From Paraburkholderia gardini (GTDB lineage: Bacteria > Pseudomonadota > Gammaproteobacteria > Burkholderiales > Burkholderiaceae), in the NCBI RefSeq assembly GCF_907164575.1, contig NZ_CAJQYY010000006.1:1-64000 (forward strand): a DNA stretch of 64,000 nucleotides. The letters run 5' to 3'. The position numbers and the translations under genes were made by a program. Shown here one piece after another: positions 2,725-23,830 of this stretch. Each line of letters begins with the position of its first letter. Positions within the stretch are counted from its first letter, which is position 1. The notes beneath the pieces were generated by a model, which was not told the origin of the DNA, did no database searches, and was given only the letters and a program-made list of their open reading frames with translations.

Positions 2725-2747
2725 CTATAGATCACGTTGTGATATAG
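2725..2747. promoter_or_regulatory. Palindromic operator candidate, ATCAC-GTT-GTGAT
   Basis: A core inverted repeat ATCAC/GTGAT with a 3-nt spacer and AT-rich flanks (CTATAG on the left, ATATAG on the right). It sits between the divergent DUF2945 and HMA-fold genes. The same core recurs near 20.6, 22.0, 22.2 and 23.8 kb around a marR gene, so MarR binding is inferred. Confidence 0.55.
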
Positions 2748-2866
2748 CTTGAATTTAATTGAATCGCCGAAGTTTTCGACGCACAGGAATGAAGGTACAA
2801 CTGCATCGGGCAGGCGCATCATGGGCCGTTCGAAGCACCCAATAACCCGAATTGAAGGAGCTGCAC

Positions 2867-3082
2867 GTGGAATTCGAACATATGGAATTCGAAGTGGAGA
2901 AGATGACCGGCGATGTCGATGCGCAGACGCTTGTCCGGGCCATCGGTGCGGTCGACCCGGACGCGAAAGTCGACGTCGACGTCAAAGCAGGAGTTGTGAA
3001 GGTCGACTCGTGGCTGATGGCCGAGGAGTTCCTCGTCGCGTTCGAGGACACGGGCTACACGGCGAAAATCAGCAAAGGCTGA
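2867..3082 (+). CDS. HMA-fold small protein lacking the CxxC metal site (copy 1)
   Basis: About 71 residues with the beta-alpha-beta-beta-alpha-beta pattern of heavy-metal-associated domains: F-E-V-E-K-M-T, a helix with V-R-A-I-G-A-V, D-A-K-V-D-V-D-V, then AEEFLVAFEDTGYTAKI. The MTCxxC metal loop is replaced by MTGDVD, so classical Cu or Zn chelation is not expected. The GTG at 2867 is preferred because AAGGAG lies 6 bases upstream; an ATG at 2882 is the alternative and matches the start of the paralogue at 18690. An AhpD scrap follows at once. Function unknown. Confidence 0.7.
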   Translation: MEFEHMEFEVEKMTGDVDAQTLVRAIGAVDPDAKVDVDVKAGVVKVDSWLMAEEFLVAFEDTGYTAKISKG

Positions 3083-3103
3083 TCCGGCGTGCGGACTCTG
3101 TAG

Positions 3104-3187
3104 CTGGCACCCGCCCCGCATGCCGCGTTCAAGGCGTTCAGCGACAGCGTTTTCGCCGATGGCGCGCTGCGGTACCACCAGCCCTGA
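3104..3187 (+). pseudogene. AhpD-like (carboxymuconolactone decarboxylase family), N-terminal scrap
   Basis: This 28-codon piece reads LAPAPHAAFKAFSDSVF-ADGAL, matching the conserved N-terminus of AhpD/CMD-family alkylhydroperoxidase-like proteins, then departs and stops at 3185. An in-frame TAG at 3101 precedes it. No CxxC catalytic part follows. A complementary C-terminal piece of the same family lies at 18927-19193, also directly behind an HMA-fold gene. Family assignment is from pattern memory, so confidence is moderate. Confidence 0.5.
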
Positions 3188-3280
3188 ACTCGAAGCACAA
3201 CGTGGAGCGTGACGGCACTCCGGTCCATTCGCTCATGGCGGCACCGCCCCGCCGGTCTGTAGCAATCAAGGAGAGTACAC

Positions 3281-5356
3281 ATGAACCCAGCGGCTTCCCT
3301 CTCGTCCAGCGCCGCGACGCTGGACGATCTGTGCGTCAACACGCTGCGTTTTCTGTCGGTCGATGCGGTGCAGAAAGCCGACAGTGGCCATCCCGGTCTG
3401 CCGCTCGGCGCCGCATCGATGGCTTACGTGCTGTGGACCCGCTTTCTCAAACACAACCCGGCGAATCCGGCATGGCTCGATCGCGATCGCTTCGTGTTGT
3501 CGGCCGGACATGGCTCGATGCTGCTTTATAGCCTGCTTCATATGACGGGCTACGATCTGCCGCTCGAACAGATCAAGCAGTTTCGCCAATGGGGCAGTCT
3601 CACGCCGGGCCATCCGGAACGCGGTTTGACACCCGGCGTCGAGACGACGACGGGGCCGCTCGGCCAGGGCCTCGCCAACGGAGTCGGCATGGCGATGGCC
3701 GAAGCGCACCTTGCCGCGCGCTACAACCGGCCGGGCTTCGACATCGTCGATCACTTCACCTACGGCATCGTCAGCGACGGTGATCTGATGGAAGGCGTCG
3801 CATCGGAAGCCGTGTCGCTCGCCGGTCATTTGCAGCTAGGCAAGCTGATCTATCTCTATGACGACAACGAGGTCACGCTTTCCGCAGGCACGGACATCAC
3901 GTTCAGCGAAGACCGTGCGCGGCGTTTCGAAGCCTATGGCTGGCACGTCCAGTCCATCGGCGACGGCAACGACAGGGGCGCCATCGAGCAGGCGCTCGGC
4001 AATGCGCGTGCCGAAATCCGGCGCCCGTCGCTGATTCTGGTGCGCACGCATCTCGGCTACGGTTCGCCGAACAGGCAGGACACCTACAAGGCGCACGGCT
4101 CGCCGCTCGGCGAAGAAGAAGTGCGTCTGACCAAACAGAACCTCGGCTGGCCAACCGGGCCGGCGTTTTATATTCCCGAGCCGGCAAGCACGCATTTTCG
4201 TCGTGCGCTTGACGAGGGTCGGCAAAAAGAAACCGAATGGAACACGCGCTTTTCCGCCTATAAGCAGGCGTTTCCAGAGCTTGCTGAGGAACTGCTGAAC
4301 GCGACGCGCGGTGAATTGCCGGCCGGCTGGGATCAGGATATCCCGCTCTTTCCCGCCGATGCCAAAGGTATCGCCACGCGGGTCGCATCGGGCAAGGTGA
4401 TGAAGGCGATCGCGCCGCGCCTGCCGTCGCTGACTGGTGGCTCCGCGGATCTCGATCCGTCCACCTTTACTGCACTGTCCGGGCTCGGCGACTTCGAAGC
4501 GCCCGGCGCCAGTGCCCGCGACCGGCAAGGCTCCGAAGGAGGCGGCTGGAGCCGCGCCGGCCGCAATCTGCACTTCGGCGTGCGCGAGCATGGCATGGGC
4601 GCGATCCTGAACGGCCTCGCCGCCCACGGCGGGACCATCCCGTTCGGCGCGACGTTCCTGATTTTTTCGGACTACATGCGTCCACCGATCCGGCTTGCCG
4701 CGCTCATGCATCTACGCGTGATCTATGTCTTCACCCACGACAGTCTGGCGCTCGGCGAAGACGGCTCGACGCATCAGCCCATCGAACAGCTCGCCAGCCT
4801 GCGGGCCGTGCCGAACCTCAACGTGATTCGCCCCGCCGATGCCAACGAAACCGCCGTGGCGTGGCGCGTAGCGCTCGAAACGCGTGACCGGCCGACCGCA
4901 CTCATCCTGACGCGCCAGAACGTGCCGACCATCGACCGTGCCCAGTTCGGCGCCGCCGACGGTCTGCGGCGCGGCGGCTACATCCTCGCGGACGCGCCGG
5001 GCGGCAAGCCGGCACTGATCCTGATCGCGACCGGCTCGGAAGTCGGGCTCGCGATGGCCGCACGCGAGCGCCTGCAGGCGCAAAACGTTGCGGTGCGCGT
5101 GGTCTCGCTGCCCTGCTGGTCGCTGTTCGACGCGCAGCCGCAAGCGTACCGGGACGTGGTGCTGCCGCCCCCGGTCGGCGCGCGGCTGGCTATCGAGGCC
5201 GGCGTGCCGCAAGGCTGGCATCGCTATGTCGGCGAAAGCGGAGAGGTGCTCGGCATCGAACGCTTCGGCGCATCGGCACCCGCTGATATTCTGATGCGCG
5301 AGTATGGTTTCACCGTCGACAACGTCTGCGCATGCGCGCTGGCGCTGTCAGTCTAG
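3281..5356 (+). CDS. tkt: Transketolase
   Basis: A 691-residue thiamine-diphosphate enzyme of the non-oxidative pentose phosphate pathway, transferring two-carbon ketol units between sugar phosphates in the cytosol. The N-terminal domain has [11 protein letters not shown], the TPP signature beginning GDLMEG near residue 167, and YDDNEVTLS for cofactor binding. The pyrimidine domain carries [17 protein letters not shown] and the THDS-x-x-L-G-E-D-G-x-T-H-Q-P motif; a C-terminal domain completes it. Length is normal. The start has a good AAGGAG site. It stands alone, not in a visible cbb operon. The next 200 bp show nothing recognisable. Confidence 0.95.
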
Positions 5357-5558
5357 CGATTGAAGGCGTGTGCCCGGAGTATGTGCGGGGCCGCGCCTCA
5401 CGCTCGTGCTTTACCGCAGCGGGCCATCATGCACGACCGTCTGCGCCTCAAGCATGCTGTCGACCAGCGCGATCACGTCTATGTCCCCACCACGGCCATC
5501 GTCTCGCTGCTGTATGTGTATGGAATACAAGCCACGCTTTTCGTTGAAGCGTCGCTAA

Positions 5559-6287
5559 TCATTTCCACGCCTGCGTGAATTCTCCAACCACGCGGGACAG
5601 GTGCGCGTGCATCGCGCTCTTCGCCGCATCTGGATTACGGTCCGCGATCGCGGCAAAAATATGCTGATGGTCTTCCTGCGACGCCGCACGCAACCCGGAC
5701 GTATGAAAGTGCTCCTCGATTTTTTCCCACAACGGATCGCTGCGCGCGCAGTCCCACATCGCCGCGACCATATGCAACAGCACCGTGTTTCCCGTCGCTT
5801 CGGCAATGTACATATGAAACTGCCGGTCGGCCGCGTGATTGGCCTCTTTGTCGTGCATCTGCTCACGCATCGTGGTGAGCGCGGCAAAGATGCGATCCAG
5901 GTCACGATCCTTGCGCTCTGTTGCCGCGAGCGCCGCCACTTCCGATTCGATCAATGCTCGCGCGCGTAAGGTTTCGATCGGCCCGGGGCCACGCGGCAGC
6001 TCGAAGGTCACCGGCCGCGCGCCGATCCTGGCCGACACATAGATGCCCGAGCCCACTCGCACTTCCACCACACCCTGCACTTCCAGCGCGATGATCGCCT
6101 CGCGCACCTGCGTGCGGCTCACGGCGAACTTGTCGGCGAGCGCGCGCTCCGACGGCAATCTCGATCCCACCTCGAAATCGCCAGCCGCGATCAACGCATG
6201 AATCTGCCTGGCGAGCCCGATATAGGACCGGTCGGTAGCGTCGGCGTCCTGTCGTTGGGCAAAGGATTGAGTGGAGAGATCGGTCAT
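5559..6287 (-). CDS. GntR/FadR-family regulator of the hexuronate (uxu) operon
   Basis: A 242-residue FCD-type GntR regulator. A winged HTH spans about 20-90, with G-S-R-L-P-S-E-R-A-L-A and VSRTQVREAI, and an all-helical FCD effector domain follows. That domain has R-A-L-I-E-S-E, D-R-x-F-H-M-Y-I and a C-terminal H-A-H-L. It resembles UxuR/ExuR. It is divergent from mannonate dehydratase, and three TGGTNNACCA palindromes lie in the shared 260-bp gap, so it most likely represses both itself and the operon until a hexuronate intermediate binds. Confidence 0.9.
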   Translation of the reverse strand: MTDLSTQSFAQRQDADATDRSYIGLARQIHALIAAGDFEVGSRLPSERALADKFAVSRTQVREAIIALEVQGVVEVRVGSGIYVSARIGARPVTFELPRGPGPIETLRARALIESEVAALAATERKDRDLDRIFAALTTMREQMHDKEANHAADRQFHMYIAEATGNTVLLHMVAAMWDCARSDPLWEKIEEHFHTSGLRAASQEDHQHIFAAIADRNPDAAKSAMHAHLSRVVGEFTQAWK

Positions 6288-6339
6288 AAGGCGCTCGCGA
6301 ACAGGTAACGCGGCGGCTCACTCGCCTCCGCGCCGAAAA

Positions 6340-6349
6340 TGGTACACCA
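6340..6349. promoter_or_regulatory. GntR/UxuR-type operator TGGTACACCA
   Basis: A palindromic TGGT-AC-ACCA in AT context, 53 bp upstream of the GntR start. It matches the TGGTNNACCA core known for UxuR/ExuR-type regulators and probably mediates autorepression. Confidence 0.7.
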
Positions 6350-6440
6350 ATTTTCCGGTACATCGGATTCTGTGCCCCACTGGCGGCCCCTAAAGGGCCC
6401 ACCTCTCCTCCGCACCGCCCCTTGAGCCATGTGGAGAGAC

Positions 6441-6450
6441 TGGTAAACCA
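6441..6450. promoter_or_regulatory. GntR/UxuR-type operator TGGTAAACCA
   Basis: Second TGGTNNACCA site in the uxuA-gntR gap. It is 24 bp centre to centre from the third site, which suits cooperative binding on the uxuA promoter side. Confidence 0.7.
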
Positions 6451-6462
6451 CTATCGCCATAA

Positions 6463-6476
6463 ATTGGTCAACCAAT
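6463..6476. promoter_or_regulatory. GntR/UxuR-type operator ATTGGTCAACCAAT
   Basis: Third and longest palindrome, with ATTGGT/ACCAAT arms around CA. It lies about 70 bp upstream of the uxuA start and likely overlaps its promoter. Confidence 0.75.
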
Positions 6477-6546
6477 CATAATCCGCCCGTCCTGGATGTG
6501 GCATGGCCGCGTCCTGCCTGCCCAATCAGTCTCAAGGAGTGAAGTC

Positions 6547-7587: not shown

Positions 7588-7672
7588 GCCCACGCGATAA
7601 CACCCTTCACCAGGACGCTGACGGACAGTTCGGTCGGCGTACATCACACCGCTATTACAGACGGAGACTTCC

Positions 7673-8977: not shown

Positions 8978-9009
8978 GCGATGACGACACGCTGTTTCGC
9001 TGGAGCAAG

Positions 9010-9034
9010 CATGCGTCTCACTTTGAGGCGCATG
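9010..9034. terminator. Hairpin after the uxu operon
   Basis: The arms CATGCGTCTC and GAGGCGCATG form a 10-bp stem (one G-U) around a 5-nt loop, 33 bases after the MFS stop. There is no U-tract, so it may be a terminator stem or an mRNA-end stabiliser. Confidence 0.35.
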
Positions 9035-9141
9035 AACAGTCGTTCGCCCGCGTTATGACGCCTGTACGTTTCGCGGTCGTTTTCCCCTGGGCTCGAGTCC
9101 AGTCTTCTGACCAGCGCACTCGCCTTCGGCGACCGAGGCCT

Positions 9142-10035: not shown

Positions 10036-10050
10036 GATTTCATATCAATT

Positions 10051-12065: not shown

Positions 12066-12075
12066 AAAGGCACAT

Positions 12076-13809
12076 ATGTCGCAGACGCTTGCGCCGACAG
12101 ATCGCAGCCGCGATCTGTCCCAGCCCGTTGAAAACCTTGGCCCCGACGAACGCATGAAGGCCTCGAGCGACCAGCTGCGCGGCACGATCCGGCACAGCCT
12201 GATCGATCAGATCACGGGCGCCGTGTCCGATGTCGACACCAAACTGCTGAAATTCCACGGCATCTATCAGCAGGACGATCGCGATGTACGCGACGAACGC
12301 AGACGTCAGAAGCTCGAACCCGCGTATCAGTTCATGATCCGGGTGCGACTGCCCGGTGGCGTCTGCACGCCCGCGCAGTGGCTGAAGCTCGACGAGCTCG
12401 CGCGCAGCTACGGCAGCGAGATGCTGCGCCTGACGACGCGGCAGACTTTTCAGTTTCATTGGGTGCTCAAGGACGATCTGCGCCCGACGCTGGCAGGGCT
12501 GCACGAAGTGCTGCTCGATACCATCGCAGCCTGCGGGGACGACTCGCGTGGCGTGATGTGCTCGGTCAACCCGCATCTGTCGGCACTGCACGCCGAAGTC
12601 CATGATCTCGCCCAGCGTGCGAGCGATCGCGCCATCCCGCGGATGCGGGCCTATCACGAGATCTGGTACGGCGAAGAGCGGCTGGCCTCTTCCGGGCCGG
12701 AGGAACCGTTCTATGGCGCCACGTATATGCCGCGCAAGTTCAAGATCGGCTTTGCCATTCCGCCGGTCAACGACATCGACGTCTATACGCAGGATCTGGG
12801 TTTCATCGCGATCGCCGGCAACGAGGGTCTCGAAGGTTTCAACGTCGCCATTGGCGGCGGCATGGGTCGCACTGACCAGGTGCCGTCGACTTACCCGCGT
12901 CTCGCCGATGTCATCGGCTTCGTCACGCTGGACAACGTTCCCGCGACCTGCGATGCGGTGATGGAACTGCAACGCGATCTTGGCGATCGGAAGGACCGCG
13001 CGCATGCGCGGTTCAAATACACGATCGACGACCGCGGTCTCGACTGGATCAAGGCAGACATCGAGCGTCGACTCGGTTTCAGGCTGGATGCGCCACGCCC
13101 TTACGTATTCGATTCGAACGGCGATACCCTCGGCTGGCAAACCGGCGACGACGGACGCCACCACGTGACACTCTTTATCGAAAACGGACGCCTTGCCAAC
13201 CGGCCTGACCGGGCGTTGATGGATGGCCTGCGCGCCATCGCGCGCATCCACGACGGTACGTTCCGTCTGACGCCCAATCAGAACCTGACGATCGCGCAGA
13301 TCTCCGATGCGAAGCGGCCGGACATCGAACGGCTGCTCGACGAATACCGGCTTCTCGCGTCCGCTGAAGGCAGCGCGTTGCGACTCGGGTCGATGGCGTG
13401 CGTCGCATTGCCGACCTGCGGTCTTGCCATGGCGGAAAGCGAACGCTACCTGCCGTCCCTCGTCAGCCGGATCGAGACGATCCTTGAGCGTCACCGTCTT
13501 TCGGACGTGCCCATCACGCTGCGCATCAGCGGCTGCCCGAATGGCTGTTCGCGGCCCTACGTCGCCGAGATCGGCCTGACGGGGCGTGCGCCGGGCAAGT
13601 ACAACCTGTATCTCGGCGGGGGCTTCCACGGTAATCGACTCAACCGGATGTATCTCGGGAATGCCGGCGAAGCAGCCATTCTCGATGCGCTTGACGCCAC
13701 GCTCGGCCACTTCGCACGTGAGCGCGGCGAGCACGAACATTTCGGGGACTTTGTCATTCGGACGGGCTACGTGAAGGCCGTCGCGGCCGGCCGCGATTTC
13801 AACAGCTAA
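12076..13809 (+). CDS. cysI: NADPH-sulfite reductase hemoprotein (beta) subunit
   Basis: A 577-residue siroheme/[4Fe-4S] enzyme reducing sulfite to sulfide with electrons from CysJ. The four cluster cysteines are at about C442, C448, C487 and C491 (C-x5-C in ACVALPTCGLAM and C-x3-C in SGCPNGCSR). The N-terminal half-domain has L-R-L-T-T-R-Q-T-F-Q and a substrate-binding arginine region. The start is the ATG at 12076 right after cysJ; the frame remains open upstream into cysJ but that part is not coding here. Many Burkholderia use a one-gene CysI, so a two-subunit cysJI is of note. Confidence 0.95.
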   Translation: MSQTLAPTDRSRDLSQPVENLGPDERMKASSDQLRGTIRHSLIDQITGAVSDVDTKLLKFHGIYQQDDRDVRDERRRQKLEPAYQFMIRVRLPGGVCTPAQWLKLDELARSYGSEMLRLTTRQTFQFHWVLKDDLRPTLAGLHEVLLDTIAACGDDSRGVMCSVNPHLSALHAEVHDLAQRASDRAIPRMRAYHEIWYGEERLASSGPEEPFYGATYMPRKFKIGFAIPPVNDIDVYTQDLGFIAIAGNEGLEGFNVAIGGGMGRTDQVPSTYPRLADVIGFVTLDNVPATCDAVMELQRDLGDRKDRAHARFKYTIDDRGLDWIKADIERRLGFRLDAPRPYVFDSNGDTLGWQTGDDGRHHVTLFIENGRLANRPDRALMDGLRAIARIHDGTFRLTPNQNLTIAQISDAKRPDIERLLDEYRLLASAEGSALRLGSMACVALPTCGLAMAESERYLPSLVSRIETILERHRLSDVPITLRISGCPNGCSRPYVAEIGLTGRAPGKYNLYLGGGFHGNRLNRMYLGNAGEAAILDALDATLGHFARERGEHEHFGDFVIRTGYVKAVAAGRDFNS

Positions 13810-13847: not shown

Positions 13848-15365
13848 ATGTCGATCCAGATCAACCTCACGTCGGAGGCCAACGACATTGTGAGCACCCT
13901 GCATCGCCCCGTCTGCGATCTGCTCGGCTGCACGTGGCCGGTCGTGCTGGCAGGCATGGGCGGCGTCGCGCGTTCGGAACTCGTCAGCGCGGTGACGGGC
14001 GCCGGCGGTTTCGGCTTTCTGGGCATGGTGCGCGAACCGGTGGCGCTGATCCGCGAGGAAGTCCAGCGCGTGCGCGCACATACCGACCGAAAGTTCGGCG
14101 TCAACCTGATCCCGGCCGCGACAGACCCGGAACTGCTGGACGCGCAGATCGATACCTGTATCGAACTCGGCGTGCCGGTCATCGGGCTGTTCTGGGATGT
14201 GGTTCCCGCAGTCGTCAAACGGTTGCGCGATGCCGGCATCCTGGTCGTCTATCAGGTCGGATCGACGAGAGACGCGCGTCTTGCCGAAGAGGCCGGCGCC
14301 CAGGTACTGATTGCCCAGGGACGGGAGGCCGGCGGCCACGTCTGGGGCGACCGGCCGCTCGCGATGCTGCTGCCGGAAATCGTCGCGGCGGCGCGGATTC
14401 CCGTTCTCGCCGCAGGCGGTCTCGTCGATGGAACCGATATCGCAACAGCGCTTTCTTTCGGCGCGCAAGGCGTCGTGCTCGGTACGGCATTGATTCCCAC
14501 TCACGAATCCTTCGCCCATCCCTATCACAAGCAACGCATCGCCGATGCTGCTGAAGACGCGACCCTTCTGACCGACGCCTTCCACATCAACTGGCCGCGC
14601 GGCGCGCGCGTACGGGTGCTTGCGAACAGCGTCACCAGCGGCCAGCGGGGCGACCCGTTCGGCACGGACAGGACCGTGATCGGAGATGAGGAAGGTCGAC
14701 CCATCTACCTGTTCAGCACCGACTCGCCGCTGCGTTCGATGACCGGCGATTTCGAAGCCATGGCGCTTTATGCGGGCACGGGCGCGGGAAGGATCGGCAC
14801 GATCGTCGGTGCGGCGGAACGTCTGCATCGCATCGTCACCGACGCGGCTGCCCTCCTCGACTCTGGTGCCGCACCGATGCAGCCCGCCGACGCCGGCGGG
14901 ATGCATGACACACTGCCGGCGGAGACGAACCGGGGTGAGTTGCTGGCCGCGCTGAACGAATTGCTGGAGGCCGAGCGCGCGGGTGCGCGCGTGACGTCGC
15001 AGACAGCGGCTGAAATCACCGCGCCGGAACTCAGACAACTGATAGCCGGCATCCGTCAGGACGAAGCACGCTGGTGCGGTGTACTGACGAAAGCGATTTT
15101 GTCGCTGGGCGCGACGCCGACCCGTCGCACCGGCGCCTTCTATGAAAAGGCGATGGCTATCGCCGATCTGCCTCAACGCATGGCTTTTCTGAACCGCGGC
15201 CAGGGATGGGTTGTCCGCAGGTTGCAGGCGTTGCTGCCGGAAATTCATGACGGGCGCATCCGCAACGACCTGGTCGCGATGCTCGCCTCTCACGAAAAAA
15301 ACATCAGGCGCGTCGAAATTCAGCTTTCCCCTACTGACGACCGCGCGCCGTCAGTCAACGTATGA
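13848..15365 (+). CDS. Nitronate monooxygenase with C-terminal helical (ferritin-like, DUF6306-type) domain
   Basis: A 505-residue protein. Residues ~15-320 are an FMN TIM-barrel of the nitronate monooxygenase/2-nitropropane dioxygenase family: C-T-W-P-V-V-L-A-G-M-G-G-V, F-G-V-N-L-I, AQGREAGGHVWG, and AAGGLVDG followed by SFGAQGVVLGT. A ~135-residue helical tail follows from LLAALNELLEAERAGARV to LASHEKNIRRVE, resembling the small four-helix proteins called DUF6306. NMO oxidises nitronates or propionate-3-nitronate. The RBS AAGGAG precedes ATG 13848. It sits 38 bp after cysI, so it is probably co-transcribed with sulfite reductase; the link is unexplained. Confidence 0.85.
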   Translation: MSIQINLTSEANDIVSTLHRPVCDLLGCTWPVVLAGMGGVARSELVSAVTGAGGFGFLGMVREPVALIREEVQRVRAHTDRKFGVNLIPAATDPELLDAQIDTCIELGVPVIGLFWDVVPAVVKRLRDAGILVVYQVGSTRDARLAEEAGAQVLIAQGREAGGHVWGDRPLAMLLPEIVAAARIPVLAAGGLVDGTDIATALSFGAQGVVLGTALIPTHESFAHPYHKQRIADAAEDATLLTDAFHINWPRGARVRVLANSVTSGQRGDPFGTDRTVIGDEEGRPIYLFSTDSPLRSMTGDFEAMALYAGTGAGRIGTIVGAAERLHRIVTDAAALLDSGAAPMQPADAGGMHDTLPAETNRGELLAALNELLEAERAGARVTSQTAAEITAPELRQLIAGIRQDEARWCGVLTKAILSLGATPTRRTGAFYEKAMAIADLPQRMAFLNRGQGWVVRRLQALLPEIHDGRIRNDLVAMLASHEKNIRRVEIQLSPTDDRAPSVNV

Positions 15366-16891: not shown

Positions 16892-16975
16892 TTTCACCCT
16901 GCGCCTTTCCTCATCGCGAGGATCAAGCTACGGCTCCGAGGGCCGTAGACCGCCTCGAACGAGATCGCTCCCCTG

Positions 16976-18181
16976 CTAGCCGAGCATGCCTGAACCGAAA
17001 ATCTCGGTATGGACGCGCGCTGCCTCGACTCCGAGACGACCAAGAGTTTCCTTCTGCTCGATCATGAACGGCAATGGGCCGCACACATAGAAGTCAGCGC
17101 CAGCGATCAGCTCTTCGTCAACCAGCGACGACAGGTCGATCCGGCCGGTCGCATCGTAGTCGGTGCCGGGAATATCGTCTTCACCGACCGCCTCATAATA
17201 GACGTGCTTCGAGAGCATCCTGCGACGAGTCGCACATTCATTCACCCAGTCCTTGAATGCGTGGACGCGACCGTTGCGGCACGCATGCGCGAACACGATC
17301 CGTCGATCGTTCCGATCCTGAACCAGAAACGAAAGCATTGAGATCATTGGTGTGATGCCAACACCGCCGCTCACTAGCACCACCGGCGTATGTTTTGTCG
17401 TATCGAGTGCAAAGACCCCTGCGGGCGCGCTGACCTCGAGCAACGCACCTACGTTGACGCCATCATGCAGTACGTTCGAGATGACACCGGGTGTCGTCTC
17501 AATGTTGCCCGGTTCACGTTTTACCGAAATGCGCAGGTAATTGCTGTTGGGTGCATCCGATAAACTATATTGACGTGGTTGTTCATAGCCGAGCACGTCG
17601 ATGTAACGCTTTACGCTTACATACTGACCTGGCTTGAAGCGACCCGGCGATCTGCCGTCGACCGGTTCCAGATAGAACGAGGAGATCTCATCGCTTTCGT
17701 GAACCTTGCGAACCACGGTAAAAGGGCGAAACCCTTCCCAGTCGGCAAGATCGTACAGCTTTCTTTCGACCCCGATCATCAGGCCCGCAAGCTGCGCATA
17801 GGCGGCCGACCATGCGTCGACAGTCTCGGCGTCGACTGCGTCGCCCAGTACCTCCACGATCGACGCGAGCAGATGCTCGCCGACGATGTCGTATTGCGCG
17901 GGCGCGATGTTCAGGCTGACGTGCTTGTTCGCAATGTGCGCGACGGCTGGACCAAGCGCGTCGATATTGTCGATGTGTGCAGCGTAGGCCCATACCGCGT
18001 GCGCGAGTGTCTCCGCCTGGTTCCCGTTTTTCTGGTTCGTTTGATTGAAAACGTTCCTGAGCTCCGGATGATGCGTGAACAGCCGTCGATAGAAATGTTT
18101 TGTGATCGTCACGCCATGTTCGGCAAGAACGGGAGCCGTGGATTTGACCTTCTTCATCTGTGTGGGAGTGAGTTGCGTCAT
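16976..18181 (-). CDS. hmp: Flavohemoprotein (nitric oxide dioxygenase)
   Basis: A 401-residue protein that converts NO and O2 to nitrate using NAD(P)H. Residues 1-138 are the globin domain, with the proximal-His helix ANKHVSLNI and distal Tyr/Gln region HFYRRLF. The FAD domain has RQYSLSD and the NAD domain GGVGITPMISM and YVCGPLPFM. The start at 18181 gives the family N-terminus MTQLTPTQ; an upstream extension of 30 residues would run through the palindrome. A 26-bp palindrome just upstream suggests NO-responsive control, probably by NsrR. Confidence 0.95.
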   Translation of the reverse strand: MTQLTPTQMKKVKSTAPVLAEHGVTITKHFYRRLFTHHPELRNVFNQTNQKNGNQAETLAHAVWAYAAHIDNIDALGPAVAHIANKHVSLNIAPAQYDIVGEHLLASIVEVLGDAVDAETVDAWSAAYAQLAGLMIGVERKLYDLADWEGFRPFTVVRKVHESDEISSFYLEPVDGRSPGRFKPGQYVSVKRYIDVLGYEQPRQYSLSDAPNSNYLRISVKREPGNIETTPGVISNVLHDGVNVGALLEVSAPAGVFALDTTKHTPVVLVSGGVGITPMISMLSFLVQDRNDRRIVFAHACRNGRVHAFKDWVNECATRRRMLSKHVYYEAVGEDDIPGTDYDATGRIDLSSLVDEELIAGADFYVCGPLPFMIEQKETLGRLGVEAARVHTEIFGSGMLG

Positions 18182-18201
18182 GATGTCCTTCCGCCTAAAG
18201 A

Positions 18202-18227
18202 TGCACAAATGATGCATTATTTGTGCA
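18202..18227. promoter_or_regulatory. 26-bp palindrome upstream of hmp (NsrR-like)
   Basis: Outer arms TGCACAAAT and ATTTGTGCA are exact inverse complements, and the centre GATGCATT contains ATGCAT. Only two inner positions break symmetry. It lies 21 bp upstream of the hmp start. ATGCAT-rich dyads are typical NsrR sites in proteobacteria; the regulator gene is not in this window. Confidence 0.7.
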
Positions 18228-18324
18228 CGATCCGCGGTGGGCGTTTTGTCGCACGATAAGGCGATATCCAAGCCGCCTCCCGGCGGTCATGGCGAGGCCG
18301 GACTGGTCCACAAAGTGGACCGGG

Positions 18325-18648
18325 TACATAACGAACCGGGAGGCAAGATCCACTTCTGGGGCACGATGATCACGTTCAACCTCACGTTCTTCCCCGTACA
18401 CTTTCCGGGCCTGGCCGGTATGCCGCGTCGATGTTCAGACTATCCAGAACAGTTCAAGGATTTCAATCATGTGGCAACAATTAGCGCGTTTGGCTTTGGA
18501 CTGCTGCAGGTGTATTTTCTATTTTTCGTCGCATTGCCCACTTATCGCGGAGTCGGCCACGAGAAGGCGGCCGGAAAGCCATGGGAAGGCGCGAAGGGCG
18601 CGAATGGACGGTCTCAGGCCCTGCGGATTTCACCCATCCTCGGGTAAG
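18325..18648 (+). pseudogene. Cytochrome c oxidase subunit I, C-terminal remnant with frameshift
   Basis: Peptide NEPGGKIHFWGTMITFNLTF followed by PVHFPGLAGMPRRCSDYPEQF matches helices XI-XII of CoxA (aa3 oxidase subunit I), and KPWEGAKGA the tail. Near 18595 the frame slips: the expected continuation, REWTVSGPADFTHP, lies in the next frame. About 400 N-terminal residues with the heme and CuB ligands are missing. It is a fragment with no neighbouring cox genes, in a decayed stretch between hmp and the second HMA-fold gene. Confidence 0.8.
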
Positions 18649-18689
18649 CAACCAGAGTGCTCCCCATCACTGGTGTAAAGGAACAACGG

Positions 18690-18878
18690 ATGAAATTCGA
18701 AGTAAAGAACATGACGGGTGGCGATGACTCGCGCGTCATTGCTAAAGCGATCGGCAGCGTCCATCCGGATGCGAAGGTCGACGTCGACGAAAGCACGCGC
18801 TGCGTCACAGTGGGCTCATGGCTGCTGGCGGAAGAATTCCTGATCGCATTCGAGGAAGCTGGTACAACGTGCGGATAA
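18690..18878 (+). CDS. HMA-fold small protein lacking CxxC (copy 2, C-terminal frameshift)
   Basis: A 62-residue paralogue of the product at 2867: MKFEVKNMTGG, K-A-I-G-S-V-H-P-D-A-K-V-D-V-D, W-L-L-A-E-E-F-L-I-A-F-E-E. The metal-loop cysteines are again absent. The last strand is disrupted: one missing base after GGT (about 18863) turns the expected AGYNVRITEG end, with a TAG at 18887, into AGTTCG-stop. The RBS AAGGAA is good. It may still fold poorly or be dying. An AhpD remnant follows, as with copy 1. Confidence 0.6.
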   Translation: MKFEVKNMTGGDDSRVIAKAIGSVHPDAKVDVDESTRCVTVGSWLLAEEFLIAFEEAGTTCG

Positions 18879-18926
18879 CGGAAGGCTAGCGCCGCTCGCT
18901 GCCAGTCCGTTTTGGGGAGGTGATTC

Positions 18927-19193
18927 ATGAACCAGCCCAGGTACCCTGCATCAAGTGCGGCGATCGCGGTGGCCGACGCGCACGTCACGCAATTCCCCTG
19001 CTGCATACGCGGCCCTGTCAGGACGGACGCTGGAAGCGGGGCAACTGAACAGGAAATCATGGAGGCCATCCGGGTTGCTGCTGAAATGCGCGCTGACGTG
19101 CCATATGCGCATTCAGTGCTGACGCTCGAAACGATGGACGTTCAACCCATACTCACATCCCGCGCACGATACACGACGACGAGCCCCACATAG
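18927..19193 (+). pseudogene. AhpD-like (CMD family), C-terminal remnant with mutated CxxC
   Basis: The frame carries the catalytic half of an AhpD-like protein: AVADAHVTQ, then FPCCIRG where CPYCIRG is expected, ATEQEIMEAIRVAAEMRA and YAHS. The first catalytic cysteine is replaced by Phe, and the N-terminal half is missing. A strong GGGGAGG site before ATG 18927 could still drive translation. The tail after TLETMD has no counterpart. AhpD-type proteins reduce peroxiredoxin or hydroperoxides via the CxxC pair, so this product should be inactive. Confidence 0.6.
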
Positions 19194-19205
19194 AGCAATC
19201 AGACA

Positions 19206-19829
19206 GTGAACAAGCATAAGCGTCCACCTTCTTCCCTCGCAAGCCTTCTGACCGATGTGCGTGCCTGTCGGGTATGTTCGCAATATCTGCCACTCGGCCC
19301 TCGCCCGATCGTACGCGCTGGAGCGGATGCACGCATTCTCATTGTCGGTCAGGCACCGGGTGCCCGCGTGCATGAATCGGGCATTCCATGGAACGACGCC
19401 AGCGGCGATCGCTTACGCAAATGGCTCGGCGTCGACGTCGCCACATTCATGGACGAGTCGCAGTTCGCCATTATTCCAATGGGATTCTGTTATCCGGGGC
19501 GAGGCAATGGCGGCGACAAACCGCCGCGCCGTGAGTGCGCGCAATTATGGCTCGACAGCCTGCTTGAGAAGCTGCCGGAGATCCAGCTAACCTTGCTGAT
19601 CGGGCAATATTCGCAACGTCATTTTCTGGGGAGCGACCGCAAGCCGTCGCTAACTGAAACGGTCAGGGCCTGGCGAGAATACGCACCCGCCTTCATTCCG
19701 TTGCCGCACCCGTCACCGCGTAACCAGGCGTGGTTTCAGCGACACGTCTGGTTCGAAAGCGAGGTACTCCCGATGCTGCGTGAAAGGATCGACCAGCTCG
19801 TGACGCATGGCGTGAGTCAGAACGGATAA
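19206..19829 (+). CDS. Uracil-DNA glycosylase family protein
   Basis: A 207-residue member of the UDG superfamily. Motif A is GQAPGARVHESGIPWND and the HPSPRN motif near the C-terminus is motif B. An N-terminal CRVC pair plus later cysteines in GFCYPGRGNGGDKPPRREC could hold an Fe-S cluster, as in family 4/5 and related enzymes. Activity on uracil is not assured, since several branches of this superfamily bind other lesions. It is 35 bp upstream of the DUF488 gene and probably co-transcribed. Confidence 0.85.
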   Translation: MNKHKRPPSSLASLLTDVRACRVCSQYLPLGPRPIVRAGADARILIVGQAPGARVHESGIPWNDASGDRLRKWLGVDVATFMDESQFAIIPMGFCYPGRGNGGDKPPRRECAQLWLDSLLEKLPEIQLTLLIGQYSQRHFLGSDRKPSLTETVRAWREYAPAFIPLPHPSPRNQAWFQRHVWFESEVLPMLRERIDQLVTHGVSQNG

Positions 19830-19864
19830 CACGCATCGAAACGTTTTCCAGAACGGAGCAAGAC

Positions 19865-20251
19865 ATGCCACGCACGAACCGGAAAAAATCGAAAATCCTC
19901 GTCAAACGGGCCTATGAAGATGCCAGGCCGGAAGATGGTTACCGTGTGCTCGTCGACCGCATCTGGCCTCGCGGGCTAAGCAAGGCGACGCTTGAACTCG
20001 ATCAGTGGGAGCGCGACCTCGCGCCAGGCACGGAACTGCGCAAATGGTTTGGCCACGATCCGAAGCGATGGGACGCCTTTCAGCAACGCTACCGAAGCGA
20101 ACTTGAAAGTGAAGAGATGCAGGAACGTATGCGACACCTGCTAGCCGAAGCGGACGGCCAGACCATCACGCTCGTTTATGGCGCAAAGGACGAGGAGCAC
20201 AATCAGGCAATCGTTCTCCAGAGCGTATTGTCGAGTCTGAATGGAGGATGA
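19865..20251 (+). CDS. DUF488 family protein (YeaO-like)
   Basis: A 128-residue protein with the hallmark DRIWPRGLSKATLELDQWERDLAPGTELRKWFGHDPKRWDAF region of DUF488 (written here in part as the R-I-W-P-R-G and L-R-K-W-F-G-H motifs) and a C-terminal T-L-V-Y-G-A-K-D-E-E-H-N-Q-A. The fold is a small alpha/beta domain of unknown biochemistry. RBS GGAGCAAGAC precedes ATG. The region 20252-20667 holds no gene but has an operator-like palindrome at 20577. Confidence 0.9.
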   Translation: MPRTNRKKSKILVKRAYEDARPEDGYRVLVDRIWPRGLSKATLELDQWERDLAPGTELRKWFGHDPKRWDAFQQRYRSELESEEMQERMRHLLAEADGQTITLVYGAKDEEHNQAIVLQSVLSSLNGG

Positions 20252-20576
20252 CGCTCGCAGCGTGCTCATGTTTTCGACGAGGTTCGATACCGCGCGAACG
20301 GACGGGCAGATCGGCAGCGGACACGTTGCCCTGCGTAGCGTGCGCCCGGCGGACAGAGAACATCACTGATCAGGGATCGCACGGCTCGCCTCTGGCACTC
20401 GCGGAATGCCCGCGAACTGAACGGAATGCAGGCACTCCGGCCAGATACCCGATTCGCCTGGTAGTCACGCAATAATCTCTGCGAATGCCGCCCGGTTTCC
20501 GTGTCCCATCCTTGCGATTTTCCATCCTGCCATCGCCATATGTGTTGCGTTGGCAACACCCGGTCCGCCCGGTCAT

Positions 20577-20597
20577 ATATATCACTTCATGATATAT
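20577..20597. promoter_or_regulatory. Palindromic operator candidate, ATCAC-TTC-ATGAT
   Basis: Arms ATATATCA and TGATATAT surround CTTCA. It lies about 70 bp upstream of the small membrane protein gene that precedes the first USP. One half-site position differs from the perfect version at 23808. Confidence 0.6.
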
Positions 20598-20667
20598 AAT
20601 TGAATGCAAGCCCTCGCGGTCTCGCGCGCGTGAGGCACCCAGTTCGTTACGACACGAGGGAGGTATC

Positions 20668-20853
20668 GTGATCATTAACAACGACTTCGAAATCGGCTAT
20701 CTGCTGGTTGCATTCGCATTGCTGGGCATCATTCTCATCGGCAGTCTGTTCAGCATGCTGCATCTCGAGCGGTGGCATCCGAGACTCATAGGCGCGGCAC
20801 TCGGCGCACTACTCGGCTTCGTGCTGATCGAAGCGGTGCCGATGTTCACCTGA
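20668..20853 (+). CDS. Small two-helix membrane protein
   Basis: A 61-residue protein with two hydrophobic segments: about 10-30 (GYLLVAFALLGIILIGSLF) and about 39-58 (IGAALGALLGFVLIEAVPM), joined by a short basic loop with LHLERWHPR. The start is GTG at 20668 behind GAGGGAGG with good spacing. It is 71 bp upstream of the first USP and probably in the same transcript under the 20577 palindrome. Function unknown; it could be an inner-membrane stress peptide. Confidence 0.6.
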   Translation: MIINNDFEIGYLLVAFALLGIILIGSLFSMLHLERWHPRLIGAALGALLGFVLIEAVPMFT

Positions 20854-20924
20854 ACCGGTTCACGGCAAAACCCATTCGGGCGCGCAATCCAGAAGGCGCA
20901 GCGAAACCTGGCAAAGGACTGACG

Positions 20925-21380
20925 ATGACCCCGTTCAACCGGATCCTGCTCTGCTACGACGGCACGCCGGAAGGGCAGCTTGCGTTGCGCTGCGGCGCAG
21001 CACTCGCGCAGCAACTCCAGGCTGAAACCCATCTGCTGTCGATTCTCGATTGCTCGTACTGGTCGAGTGGATTCGACGTTCTGTCCGCGATGAAATTCGA
21101 AGTCGATGAGCAGGCGGCGCGGGAAACACTGCGCGAGGGCATTGACCGTCTGCAGGCATGGGGTGTGGCCGCGACGGGCCACTATTCGACAGGAAACGCG
21201 GTCGACCAGATTTCCCGTCTGGCCAATTCATTGAAGGTCGACCTGATCGTCATCGGACATCACCCACATGGCTTTTTTGCGCGCTGGTGGACCGGAGAAA
21301 ACCACGCATTGCTGCTCAACCGCGTGTCGTGCGGCGTCCTGTTCGAGGTCACTGAAGCGCGCGCGGAATCTTCCAGATGA
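20925..21380 (+). CDS. Universal stress protein (copy 1)
   Basis: A 151-residue UspA-domain protein: NRILLCYDGTPEGQLAL at the start, a long helix, and LKVDLIVIGHHPHGFFARWW near the end. The canonical ATP loop G-2x-G-9x-G-S/T is altered, with G-E-N where G-S/T-x is normal, so nucleotide binding is uncertain. ATG 20925 is chosen over a longer upstream frame because of the family start and an AAAGGA site. The last 32 bases overlap the convergent DUF1840 gene. A paralogue lies at 23959. Confidence 0.85.
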   Translation: MTPFNRILLCYDGTPEGQLALRCGAALAQQLQAETHLLSILDCSYWSSGFDVLSAMKFEVDEQAARETLREGIDRLQAWGVAATGHYSTGNAVDQISRLANSLKVDLIVIGHHPHGFFARWWTGENHALLLNRVSCGVLFEVTEARAESSR

Positions 21381-21681
21381 TGTCGGCATTGTGTTCGCGG
21401 GCTTCACGCATCATGTCGAGAAACGACCAGGCTGGCTGCGAAAGTCCACTGCCAGATTCCTGACCGTGTTCGCGGGGGAATTGCAGCGATTCGAGGGCAA
21501 GCTCCGCTTTTTCGTCATCGGAGATAGCCGCTTCAACACGCCTGATCGCGCCGGGTAGTTCGTCGTGCAGGATGACACCACGCGCATCGAGCCGTTTGCC
21601 GACGAGCCCCAGCAGATACTGGGCAAGCTCCCTGAGCATCACGACATCAGGCGTTGCGGGCGATTGAAACGTGATCAGCAT
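21349..21681 (-). CDS. DUF1840 family protein
   Basis: A 110-residue protein with MLITFQSPATPDVVML at the start, then A-Q-Y-L-L-G-L-V-G-K-R-L, a low-complexity acidic/polar middle and QPAWSFLDMMREAREHNADI-type end, as in DUF1840. A strong AAGGAG precedes ATG 21681. Family function is unknown. The 3' ends of this gene and USP 1 overlap convergently by 32 bp. Confidence 0.85.
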   Translation of the reverse strand: MLITFQSPATPDVVMLRELAQYLLGLVGKRLDARGVILHDELPGAIRRVEAAISDDEKAELALESLQFPREHGQESGSGLSQPAWSFLDMMREAREHNADIIWKIPRALQ

Positions 21682-21987
21682 GATGGCTCCTTGATTTGAT
21701 CTTATTGCACGATCGCACCGGAAAGCCGTTGAGCAAAACGAATGAGGCGCGTCTCGACGATGCAGACGGAAAGGCCTCGGATCTACCCACGGCGATGCTC
21801 TCGTGGAAGTGAGGCAACGCATCTTTCACACTGTGACGACAGCGAGGGCCTTCAGGATGGCTGGCATTGCGCATCGGAGCGAAGCACGGCGTCCCCATCG
21901 GTACGCGCAATCCGGGCAAATCATCGTTGTAGTTTCATCCGGACTGCTCCTGCTCAAGGTCCAGCCACCAGAAGGCCTGCCATCATT

Positions 21988-22008
21988 TTATATCACGACA
22001 TGATTTAT
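21988..22008. promoter_or_regulatory. Palindromic operator candidate, ATCAC-GAC-ATGAT
   Basis: TATATCAC-GAC-ATGATTTAT. First of three related sites in the 550-bp gap 21682-22231, which contains no gene, between DUF1840 and marR. Confidence 0.5.
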
Positions 22009-22115
22009 TAGGGCTGGAAATAGCATCTATTGACGTTCCTTGCGACAGCCGTCGAACTGTTTTGACTCTATGGTCAACCCGCTTCTGCTGCACTGCCGCA
22101 GTCCGAACCACTTTT

Positions 22116-22134
22116 TATACCACGACGAAATATA
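22116..22134. promoter_or_regulatory. Degenerate operator candidate in the marR upstream region
   Basis: TATACCAC-GAC-GAAATATA keeps the AT-rich ends and the CAC half but loses the right GTGAT. A weaker member of the set. Confidence 0.3.
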
Positions 22135-22179
22135 CCTGGCATAGCCACCGTTCCGTTGCCAGATTGAATTCAGATATAA

Positions 22180-22196
22180 ATATCATAATTTGATAT
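22180..22196. promoter_or_regulatory. Operator candidate at the marR promoter
   Basis: ATATCA-TAATT-TGATAT, 35 bp before the marR start, where it could overlap the promoter and give autorepression. Confidence 0.55.
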
Positions 22197-22231
22197 AATT
22201 TACGTTTCCCCTGTTTCTCGACGGAGCGCCG

Positions 22232-22645
22232 ATGAAAGCCCTCGCTCGCAGCTTGACCAAGACAGACTTCGAGCAACTATCCGAGTTTCGCTATCAGATG
22301 CGGCGCTTCGAGCGTTTTTCTGAACAGGCCGCCCAGCACGAGGACATCACGCCATTGCAGTATTTGCTGCTCCTGCACATCAAGGGCTACCCGAAGCGCG
22401 ACTGGGCGACCGTCGGCGAACTCGCGGAACGGTTCCAGGCGCAGCATCACGGCGTAGTCGCGCTCGTGTCCCGCTGTGAGGCGCTCGATCTCGTCCGCAG
22501 AAAAGTCAGTGAGACAGACCGGCGGCAGGTCGAGGTCCATTTGCTGAAAGCGGGCGAGCAAGTGCTTGCCCGTCTCGCCGAGATGCATCGTACCGAACTG
22601 AAGTCGCTCGACGGCGCCTTTAACGTCCCCCAGATTGATTTTTGA
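22232..22645 (+). CDS. MarR-family transcriptional regulator (stress island)
   Basis: A 137-residue winged-helix regulator: ITPLQYLLLLHIKGYP, T-V-G-E-L-A-E-R-F-Q-A-Q-H-H-G-V-V-A-L-V-S-R as recognition helix, V-R-R-K-V-S-E-T-D-R-R-Q-V-E-V as the wing with its D-R-R. Dimerisation helices flank it. In Burkholderia this type often precedes a CLC chloride channel gene, and here a broken clc fragment follows in frame right after the stop. It is the best candidate to bind the ATCAC-N3-RTGAT sites in front of it and before nearby stress genes. Confidence 0.85.
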   Translation: MKALARSLTKTDFEQLSEFRYQMRRFERFSEQAAQHEDITPLQYLLLLHIKGYPKRDWATVGELAERFQAQHHGVVALVSRCEALDLVRRKVSETDRRQVEVHLLKAGEQVLARLAEMHRTELKSLDGAFNVPQIDF

Positions 22646-22985
22646 GTCACAGCGCGTTTCGATATCCGTAAGCGCGACTTTTCCATCAATACGCGGCTTG
22701 CCGGCATTTCCGCGCTCGCCGCGGCGATCGGCACGCTCAGCACGTTCGCGGTGTTCGTGCTGCCGGGCCTGATTCACCTGTTCACCAGCCTGTTTTCTTC
22801 CAGGAATTTTCGTTTGCGAACCGCTCGCGGGCCCTTAATGCACTGGGGATCCCGGTGGTAATCATTCCGGTAACCGGCGGCCTCATCGCCGGCTTCATGG
22901 CGCGCTACGGCCCGGAGAAGATTCGTGGGCACGGCATTCCGGAAACAATTGAAGCCATCCTGTTCGGCAATTGCTTCAAAGACGC
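22646..22985 (+). pseudogene. CLC-family chloride channel, N-terminal remnant with frameshift
   Basis: Reads RFDIRKRDFSINTRLAGISA and continues AIGTLSTFAVFVLPGLIHLFTSLF; then near 22800 a base is lost and the next frame continues FQEFSF-like ANRSRALNALGIPVVII, TGGLIAGFMARYGPEKIRGHG and I-P-E-T-I-E-A-I-L-F-G, where it stops matching. About 110 of some 570 residues remain, with the GSGGPFGAEGP-type filter and most helices missing. The interval 22986-23275 holds no recognisable gene. Confidence 0.75.
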
Positions 22986-23275
22986 GCGCCTCGCAGACCG
23001 TAACCAGGAAGGCGGGAACGCGGGAACGCGGCTCGCTCACGTGACATCGAACACCCTATCCACGATCCGACCGGTTGCGGATCGCGTGCGCACCGGATGC
23101 CCGGATACTTTGTGCAGACGGAAATCGTCGTGTCAAAATATGTACCGGCGGTTTTGTCCTTTCCTGCACGAATCATCATCGCGCGAAATCGATGCCGCAG
23201 TGTGCGACGTATCCAGATTCGACGGCACCCGCTGCAATCGGATGATCGCGAACGTACTATCACGGGTAGCTGGCG

Positions 23276-23677
23276 ATGATGGCCACGACACTTGCACACC
23301 AACGATATAAATCCCCTCCTCTCCCCGGAGCCTCTCACTGTGTCCTGGCGATACTGGGCATTCTCTGCGTGGTCGCAAGCCCGGGTGCGCAAGCGCGGGC
23401 AATCAGGATCGTATCGGGTAGCGACGGCATGAACTGCGGAGCGCCACGAGGCAACGCGACTCATGACCTCGCCCGTCAGTGCGACGGTCTCCAGACTTGC
23501 CGGTACGTACTGCACAAGGGAATCACGGGTGCTCCATCCATGAGCTGCCACAAGGACTTTCGAGCCGAATGGCGGTGTACCGACACCGAATTCCACACCG
23601 CCGCGCTTAGCCCTGAAGCAGGGTCGAGCAGTACCCTTGTACTGAGTTGCGTCGAAGAGACCGGCCCAGGCAGATAG
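23276..23677 (+). CDS. Secreted Cys-rich protein with SUEL/galactose-binding-lectin-like domain
   Basis: A 133-residue protein. A signal peptide (VLAILGILCVVASPGAQARA, about 23-42) leads to a mature ~90-residue domain: I-R-I-V-S-G-S-D-G-M-N-C-G, RGNATHDLARQCDG, C-R-Y-V-L, C-H-K-D-F-R-A-E-W-R-C and a closing V-L-S-C. The six or more cysteines and the N-A-T/C-x-G/C pattern resemble small SUEL (rhamnose/galactose-binding) lectin-like modules in Proteobacteria. Ligand unknown; it is likely periplasmic or secreted, with disulfides. The start is ATG 23276 or 23279; no strong RBS. Confidence 0.55.
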   Translation: MMATTLAHQRYKSPPLPGASHCVLAILGILCVVASPGAQARAIRIVSGSDGMNCGAPRGNATHDLARQCDGLQTCRYVLHKGITGAPSMSCHKDFRAEWRCTDTEFHTAALSPEAGSSSTLVLSCVEETGPGR

Positions 23678-23807
23678 ACGCCGCAGTGCAAACGGCTCAC
23701 GAAAAATACCTGGTTTGCCTGGGTACCTGACGGCATCTCGAACGGCATGAGCCATTCGGGGTCGTGCGGGCTCCAGCCAGAACCCTTCGCGCGATTGGGG
23801 CAGAACA

Positions 23808-23830
23808 TATATATCACAAAGTGATATATA
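23808..23830. promoter_or_regulatory. Perfect 23-bp palindrome, ATCAC-AAA-GTGAT
   Basis: Arms TATATATCAC and GTGATATATA are exact inverse complements with spacer AAA, about 130 bp upstream of the second USP. It is the best copy of the ATCAC-N3-RTGAT family. Confidence 0.7.

Follow-up and report, generated by a model that had tools for sequence, protein, structure and literature searches.

Which protein reads the palindromes that recur before stress genes in the genome of Paraburkholderia gardini? The window analyzed here is a stretch of 64,000 nucleotides (contig NZ_CAJQYY010000006.1, positions 1 to 64,000; G+C content, 0.611). The initial annotation had noted dispersed repeats of the form ATCAC-N3-RTGAT in it, before genes for universal stress proteins (USPs) and other small proteins, and had proposed that they mark a stress regulon controlled by the MarR-type regulator encoded at 22232. 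Comparative analysis indicates that the palindromes are most likely operators for this MarR and for its paralogues as well; the protein is predicted to repress its own gene, ClC-type channel genes, and wider stress genes. The position of the boxes, the co-distribution of box and regulator, the persistence of the pair outside the family, and the covariation of residue 74 with a box base all lend in silico support to the proposed MarR control. The predicted core partner of the regulator-box pair is the ClC chloride channel, which the initial annotation had missed, as it had the presence of three MarR paralogues in the genome and the overlap of boxes with the −10 element.

All four sites first listed as good (2731, 20581, 21992, and 23813) contain the ATCAC-N3-RTGAT core. 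This short core is modestly enriched in the window (13 matches at ≤1 mismatch versus 5.95 expected, a count reached in 2/100 shuffles); at roughly twofold enrichment, it was dropped as stand-alone evidence. The signal is carried instead by the longer word TATATCAY-N3-RTGATATA. We scored this 19-mer with a symmetrized matrix derived from promoter sites of marR genes in other species (66 distinct 27-mers, 59 distinct 19-mers) and obtained five window matches, at 2728, 20578, 21989, 22179, and 23810, with scores of 24.9 to 34.1 bits. The next-best score in the window drops to 8.9 bits; in 60 simulated 64-kb sequences (order-3 Markov), the best score averaged 6.9 bits and never exceeded 21.06 bits. 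Of the two sites initially called weaker, that at 22182 is strong (25.8 bits) and constitutes the marR promoter box, while that at 22121 (8.6 bits) was rejected as unsupported. An exact core match at 52500 (8.9 bits) and a one-mismatch core match at 12326 (1.3 bits) are without flanking arms and were also set aside. All five boxes are of the A/A type, with A following TATATC in each arm.

The fixed 3-nucleotide (nt) spacer was borne out by counts of arm spacing at ≤1 mismatch over 125 sources (2.0 Mb). The arms TATATCA and TGATATA stand five nucleotides apart at 177 places, 5 of them in the window, and were found at no place with gaps of 0, 1, 2, 4, 6, 7, or 8 nt. A gap of 3 nt occurs at 35 places, 33 of which precede HPP genes; we did not retain this 17-mer as a second spacing class, as all of its places coincide with 19-mer places and most are degenerate HPP-promoter boxes. 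The reversed control of the box was not found in the 2.0 Mb.

Across the host genome (5.83 Mb, 76 contigs), a 21-mer pattern at ≤3 mismatches returned 28 strand hits, versus 4 for the reversed control, corresponding to 15 distinct places. None of the 15 lies inside a called gene, with a called coding fraction of 0.715 for the pieces concerned; here and below, genes were called by a simple coding-score script or, in the wider loci, as longest frames, and these calls are not an annotation. Nine places match with ≤1 mismatch, including five in the window. Among the predicted targets outside the window, a ClC-CBS channel gene on contig C30 begins 47 nt after a box. Two weaker boxes on contig C5 are followed by HPP-CBS, a MarR paralogue, and ClC-CBS, and the ClC gene at this paralogous locus is full length. 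On contig C3, boxes lie 162 nt from a DUF1840 gene and 256 nt from SatP with acetyl-CoA synthetase. We did not count a SLAC1 channel gene and an amino acid permease gene as targets, since their called starts are 829 and 427 nt from boxes, nor PqiA, whose box has one G and one odd arm.

Box and regulator also occur together among relatives. A box precedes marR in 72/80 named loci (≤2 mismatches); it starts between −47 and −63 in 71 loci and at −85 in the remaining one; the reversed control is found before marR in 0/80 loci at ≤3 mismatches and in 8/80 at 4. By sequence, these 72 relatives thus have what typifies the MarR family, a palindromic operator candidate at the regulator's own promoter. 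In a survey of 398 genomes of the family, a MarR member (E ≤1e-12) was found in 294, and a box with ≤1 mismatch was present in 247 of these versus 17 of the 104 without MarR; control hits occurred in 17/398. This tally was made by hand from the MarR and box lists, with ≤10 candidates scored per genome in the MarR search, and six MarR-negative genomes rechecked with all candidates (G085, G015, G225, G296, G147, and G267) were still without a close member. Sixty of the 104 belong to g13, a small genus in which 13 genomes carry a box. Of the remaining 44, a box is present in 4, namely, G007 and G060, each of which gave control hits too, as well as G225 and G296. We note that the hits in 13 of these 60 small g13 genomes, in which one control hit was found, may reflect base composition or another system.

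Gene order is shared as well. The loci L106 and L108 have a cluster consisting of box-small membrane protein-USP 1, DUF1840, boxes-HPP, box-marR-ClC, and box-USP 2, and in three other genera (L197, L203, and L205), a box stands directly before marR-ClC. A further relative, G040 (L198), has the window's version of the cluster, also without HPP, but its ClC gene is full length. L106, L108, and L198 are syntenic with the window around box 3, a region whose boxes are flanked in relatives by DUF1840 and HPP-CBS. No HPP match was found at window positions 18001 to 26000, and behind the window marR, no intact Voltage_CLC gene was found, only a remnant whose pieces are 67 to 72% identical to residues ∼2 to 115 of the ClC proteins encoded at L019 and L198 by tblastn. 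The window regulator has outlived its channel: ClC is a remnant and HPP is absent, and both USP genes, DUF1840, DUF2945, and marR still have their boxes.

Genes near boxes were grouped into clusters over 265 box places from the 125 sources (1 inside a called gene and 27 without a gene start within 350 nt). This is a biased sample (80 sources were selected by marR, and the rest, 45 in all, comprise the window plus box-selected stretches) in which a DUF1840 cluster occupies 45 places in 31 loci and a USP cluster occupies 21 places in 18 loci; the unbiased box figures are those of the own-genome searches and the 398-genome survey. An Hva1-like gene lies 179 nt from a box in the relative G370 (L223). 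In a Cupriavidus and a Caballeronia genome (L221 and L216), boxes lie 97 and 128 nt before flavohaemoglobin genes. The window has a flavohaemoglobin gene of its own (16976 to 18181, minus strand), with none of the five boxes nearby.

The pair extends beyond the family. A homologue on Klebsiella aerogenes plasmid p35 that is 62% identical to the window MarR has a perfect box beginning 65 nt before its annotated start. For homologues with <50% identity, TATATC-N7-GATATA (≤1 mismatch) lies within 260 nt upstream in 18/24, versus 0/24 for the reversed and swapped-arm controls; among other gap lengths, N9 gave 4/24 and five others gave none. The corresponding figure at ≥70% identity is 93/130, each of these identity-binned sets containing near-identical relatives. 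The distant homologues come from Rhodococcus, Rhizobium, and sphingomonad plasmids, from three genomes of the same class, and from genomes of other classes of the phylum; assignment to the alphaproteobacteria rests on named plasmid records (Novosphingobium, Sphingobium, and Rhizobium). Their boxes mostly read TATATCG..CGATATA rather than TATATCA..TGATATA. Wider loci (∼5 kb on each side) were taken from 20 of 26 out-of-family genomes, 16 at 33 to 44% and 4 at 58 to 66% identity. A ClC gene lies within ∼5 kb in 15/20 (13/16 at 33 to 44% identity), and the box lies between ClC and marR in 11/20. In the Novosphingobium and Sphingobium plasmid records, a box precedes marR and the divergent neighbor is annotated as a chloride channel protein; in the Rhodococcus record, no ClC gene is annotated within 4 kb.

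Several plasmid homologues have other neighbors. On Burkholderia ubonensis plasmid pRF23 (L291), genes for NarJI, a PilJ-type sensor, and a response regulator immediately precede the homologue, which has no box within 260 nt upstream. The one on plasmid 3 of Variovorax sp. RA8 (L289), near a formate dehydrogenase operon, has a two-mismatch box and is followed by genes for a PAS protein and a hemerythrin. Two Klebsiella plasmids typed as conjugative (L237 and L288) carry a homologue with a box and, on the other side, genes for a flavin reductase and a zinc-binding protein.

The regulator itself has the winged-helix domain of the MarR family (49.1 bits to Pfam MarR_2, versus a cutoff of 27). The best of five structure models, with a predicted local distance difference test score of 85.2 (46 to 75 for the others), matches MarR structures with a probability of 1.00, the nearest solved folds being MarR proteins at 16 to 24% identity. 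No named NCBIfam MarR equivalog (HpaR, OhrR, BilQ, LdtR, Saro_0803, or Rv0880) fits, the best score being 30.6 bits versus cutoffs of 121 to 250. Among named genomes, the best matches are mostly from Paraburkholderia. The host genome encodes three MarR paralogues, with those on contigs C5 and C3 being ∼84% and ∼60% identical to the window protein. In the model, the predicted recognition helix spans residues 72 to 84, with residue 74 at its start and the sole cysteine, C82, within it. This cysteine is kept in the branch with A-type boxes; redox sensing through it was not adopted, Leu occupying the position in 15/18 proteins with G/G boxes.

Residue 74 (window numbering) was compared with the base after TATATC in each arm across distinct proteins with boxes at ≤2 mismatches. 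With A/A boxes (n = 99), the residue is Gly in 97 proteins, Ala in 2, and Ser in none; with G/G boxes (n = 18), it is Ser in 16 and Thr in 2; and with mixed boxes (n = 6), it is Ser in 5 and Gly in 1 (L075). When duplicates are included, 120 Gly/Ala proteins go with A/A boxes and 23 Ser/Thr proteins with a G arm, with one exception. Eight Ser74 proteins without a box are uninformative. The two major branches differ in numerous further alignment columns, so most weight falls on cases inside a single branch. Where C82 is kept, there are four Ser74 proteins with a box at ≤2 mismatches (L023, L079, L081, and L263), representing about three lineages, and each of these boxes combines an A arm with a G arm; another four Ser74 proteins are without a box, and one has a mixed box that is weak. 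By parsimony on a FastTree tree, the residue changes 6 times and the box 5 times, with 5 joint changes. This covariation offers computational, and indirect, support for the reading of this box by this MarR family. On balance, we lean toward an undescribed, old MarR branch that would be dedicated to the ClC channels of alpha- and betaproteobacteria and would have Rhodococcus relatives. Its putative operator, TATATCRY-N3-RYGATATA, would have an arm base set by Gly74 or Ser74, and in the Burkholderiaceae, it would serve an anion-channel and USP regulon.

Most boxes coincide with a likely promoter. At least five of the six TATAAT bases fall at the right arm in 158/189 box-gene pairs within 150 nt, versus 1/136 for the control. 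Because TATA is itself part of the box, the independent −10 signal is the T at +20, which is invariant in 66/66 distinct marR sites, whereas only 48% have an A at the mirror position. A perfect TATAAT overlaps three of the window boxes (2, 4, and 5) but neither box 1 nor box 3. Repression is predicted from this overlap with the −10 element, which is seen at most of the promoters. A MarR dimer seated on the box would lie across the −10 element and block RNA polymerase, thereby repressing marR itself and ClC-type anion channel genes and, in Burkholderiaceae, a wider set of stress genes as well. Binding, repression, and release by an inducer are each predicted steps. Since genes for ClC, HPP-CBS, SatP with acetyl-CoA synthetase, USPs, and, occasionally in relatives, flavohaemoglobin, hemerythrin, or a sensor kinase lie behind boxes, anion, acid, or low-oxygen/nitrosative stress could tentatively be suggested as the trigger.

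A number of observations weigh against this interpretation. In the host genome, the pattern gives 19 hits versus 8 for the control at 2 mismatches, so the tail of the own-genome matches is near noise. A box is missing at 1 mismatch from 47/294 genomes with MarR and at 2 mismatches from 8/80 named marR loci, and homologues at 50 to 70% identity have one at 1 mismatch in only 12/31 cases. All five marR loci of Cupriavidus (g3, an inferred genus; L076 to L078, L080, and L089) are without a box within 400 nt; one of them follows another gene, which has a box ∼790 nt upstream. Conversely, G225 and G296 have boxes before HPP/ClC genes and no member of this MarR subfamily (best distant MarR, 5e-6). 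Covariation is broken by L075, in which Gly74 goes with one G arm; L034 and L109 (Gly74), outside the mismatch cut, have weak three-mismatch boxes with a G arm, and L257 (Ser74) was set aside because its box is of the T/G type. Gene content is the basis for guessing at the class of stress, and a low-oxygen trigger is at odds with a B. thailandensis low-oxygen study, in which six USP genes went down, not up (PMC3966863).

The strongest competitor, which we regard as unlikely although well short of negligible, is that the window boxes are read mainly by a paralogue (the contig C5 MarR, with Ser74, or the contig C3 MarR) and that the window MarR, its channel lost, is a bystander. In its favor, the genome has three members (window and C3 proteins 84% and 61% identical to the C5 protein), the C5 member retains its HPP and ClC neighbors, and Gly74 is shared by the C3 member. 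Against it, marR in the window has an intact frame and encodes the Gly74 found with A/A boxes (97/99 distinct proteins), its promoter keeps such a box, and all five window boxes are A/A, whereas the C5 paralogue combines Ser74 with a mixed A/G box before its gene. Considerably less probable is a binder outside this MarR subfamily for which marR would be only a target, such as the Lrp/AsnC protein encoded beside ClC in Cupriavidus. It would account for the boxes of G225 and G296, and an Lrp/AsnC gene (88 to 100% identical) lies near ClC in 5/5 Cupriavidus genomes examined. Nine of the other ten genomes tested have only a paralogue at 36 to 40% identity, and one has none; moreover, the box accompanies marR to Klebsiella and Rhodococcus plasmids and to other classes, and it covaries with the recognition helix. 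Lrp/AsnC was rejected as a general binder, being near ClC only in Cupriavidus among the 15 genomes, and it might act on the boxes there. In both G225 and G296 (L219 and L193; Cupriavidus), a box lies between divergent HPP and ClC genes.

That the repeats are merely AT-rich extended −10 promoters, palindromic by chance and with no dedicated regulator, is very improbable. The right arm does overlap TATAAT in most places, and its outer part is better conserved (0.82 to 1.00) than that of the left arm (0.64 to 0.98). The left-arm core TCA, which is no promoter element, is nonetheless invariant in 66 sites, and the spacing is fixed, with no reversed-control match in 2.0 Mb. FNR boxes take the form TTGAY-N4-RTCAA, which the palindromes do not share, and no such site (≤1 mismatch) lies near the cluster, the three in the window being at 13851, 37530, and 49464. 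A low-oxygen, FNR-type regulon in which the palindromes are of minor importance, comparable to the lxa locus of B. cenocepacia, is improbable, and FNR control was rejected for want of such boxes near the cluster, which also leaves low oxygen without backing as the trigger. In favor of such a regulon, B. cenocepacia USPs are raised in low oxygen according to two reports (PMC3759415 and PMC9104464), and boxes in relatives occur near genes for flavohaemoglobin, hemerythrin, and a PilJ/HAMP/GAF sensor kinase. We retain MarR and its paralogues as the most likely readers of the boxes; Table 1 collects the features of the predicted regulon in the window.

Table 1. Boxes, promoter elements, and genes of the predicted regulon in the window
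Feature	Position	Strand	Evidence or remark
Box 1, TAGATCAC-GTT-GTGATATA	2728..2746	.	25.9 bits; 1 mismatch to 19-mer in own-genome search
DUF2945/Hva1_TUDOR small protein, predicted target	2397..2612	-	Start 115 nt from box 1
71-aa protein (earlier "HMA"), predicted target	2867..3082	+	Start 119 nt from box 1
Box 2, perfect, TATATCAC-TTC-ATGATATA	20578..20596	.	33.2 bits; 0 mismatches
TATAAT −10 hexamer overlapping box 2	20595..20600	+	Sequence
Small membrane protein, 61 aa (by eye)	20668..20853	+	Behind box in 12 loci (box-target cluster)
USP 1, after small membrane protein	20925..21380	+	Syntenic USP in relatives
DUF1840 protein, predicted target of box 3 on other side	21349..21681	-	Pfam PF08895
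Box 3, TATATCAC-GAC-ATGATTTA	21989..22007	.	24.9 bits
Box 4, AATATCAT-AAT-TTGATATA, predicted autoregulatory marR box	22179..22197	.	25.8 bits
Extended −10 TG-A-TATAAT overlapping right arm of box 4	22191..22199	+	Sequence
marR, 137 aa, Gly74 in predicted recognition helix	22232..22645	+	Pfam MarR_2, 6.3e-13
ClC chloride channel gene remnant, two pieces, two frames	22655..22995	+	tblastn
Box 5, perfect, TATATCAC-AAA-GTGATATA	23810..23828	.	34.1 bits; 0 mismatches
TATAAT −10 hexamer overlapping box 5	23827..23832	+	Sequence
USP 2, predicted target	23959..24441	+	Pfam Usp, 1.1e-18

Box 1 sits between two divergent genes, for which the initial labels fared differently. DUF2945 was confirmed by a match to Pfam PF11160 (Hva1_TUDOR; 5e-20 over 2397 to 2687), while the 71-aa product called HMA has no Pfam match at 1e-3. 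The DUF1840 assignment rests on a match of 3.2e-23 over 21349 to 21822. No Pfam family was found for the 61-aa membrane protein, and USP 1 has a weak NCBIfam UspF match (2.3e-5) under the cutoff. Box 4 begins 53 nt upstream of the marR start. Further upstream, at 18315 to 18647, a 110-aa frame whose match to cytochrome oxidase subunit I (COX1) is confined to the end of that protein is likely a gene fragment.

MarR, MepR, OhrR, and MftR, whose folds came up in the structure search, are autorepressors with a palindromic operator at their promoter. The system described here resembles them in its winged-helix fold and in the palindrome before the regulator's own gene and a neighboring effector gene. 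It differs in operator sequence and in its ClC partner, no characterized family reaching its NCBIfam cutoff, and the model of the window MarR is without a helix after residue 126, a further predicted difference. SydR of Sinorhizobium meliloti is a MarR-type protein that has two operators with TATC...GATA arms (TATCGCGATA) at the promoters of sydR and its neighbor (PMC11633110). The same study gives the SydR operator as a contiguous 10-bp palindrome with no spacer and places oxidant sensing at C16 in helix 1, whereas C82 of the window MarR lies in the predicted recognition helix (PMC11633110). PA3458 of Pseudomonas aeruginosa is likewise of the MarR type with many sites and stress-response targets, but its motif (TTHGNASDSRAARDA) is only partly palindromic and its targets are osmoadaptation genes (PMC8070244). 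The lxa locus of B. cenocepacia also groups several USP genes; it is tied to low oxygen, and the sections available name FNR-type regulators and no MarR (PMC9104464 and PMC3759415). In Rhizobium tropici, the ClC channel gene sycA is listed among acid-tolerance genes, and a MarR gene from the same acid screen is not tied to a ClC gene in the accessible part of that article (PMC5936775).

The initial remark that no described MarR box of this form was known agrees with our full-text literature searches (most subscription journals not covered), in which neither this box nor a pairing of MarR with ClC was found to be described. Within the same scope, no paper was found that links a MarR regulator and its operator to bacterial ClC channels and USPs. 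Within these searches, the regulator is a MarR protein whose predicted operator and regulon are undescribed.

Bacterial ClC channels and USPs are widespread. Since the pair of regulator and palindrome adjoins chloride channel genes across many further bacteria, how these channels are controlled could now be put to the test. A box that travels with its regulator across classes and into Rhodococcus, together with one residue that tracks one base, lends itself to cheap tests of the identity of the binder, of the signal that releases it, and of how a MarR protein shifts its DNA preference. The inducer, if found, would also tell what these ClC channels are for.

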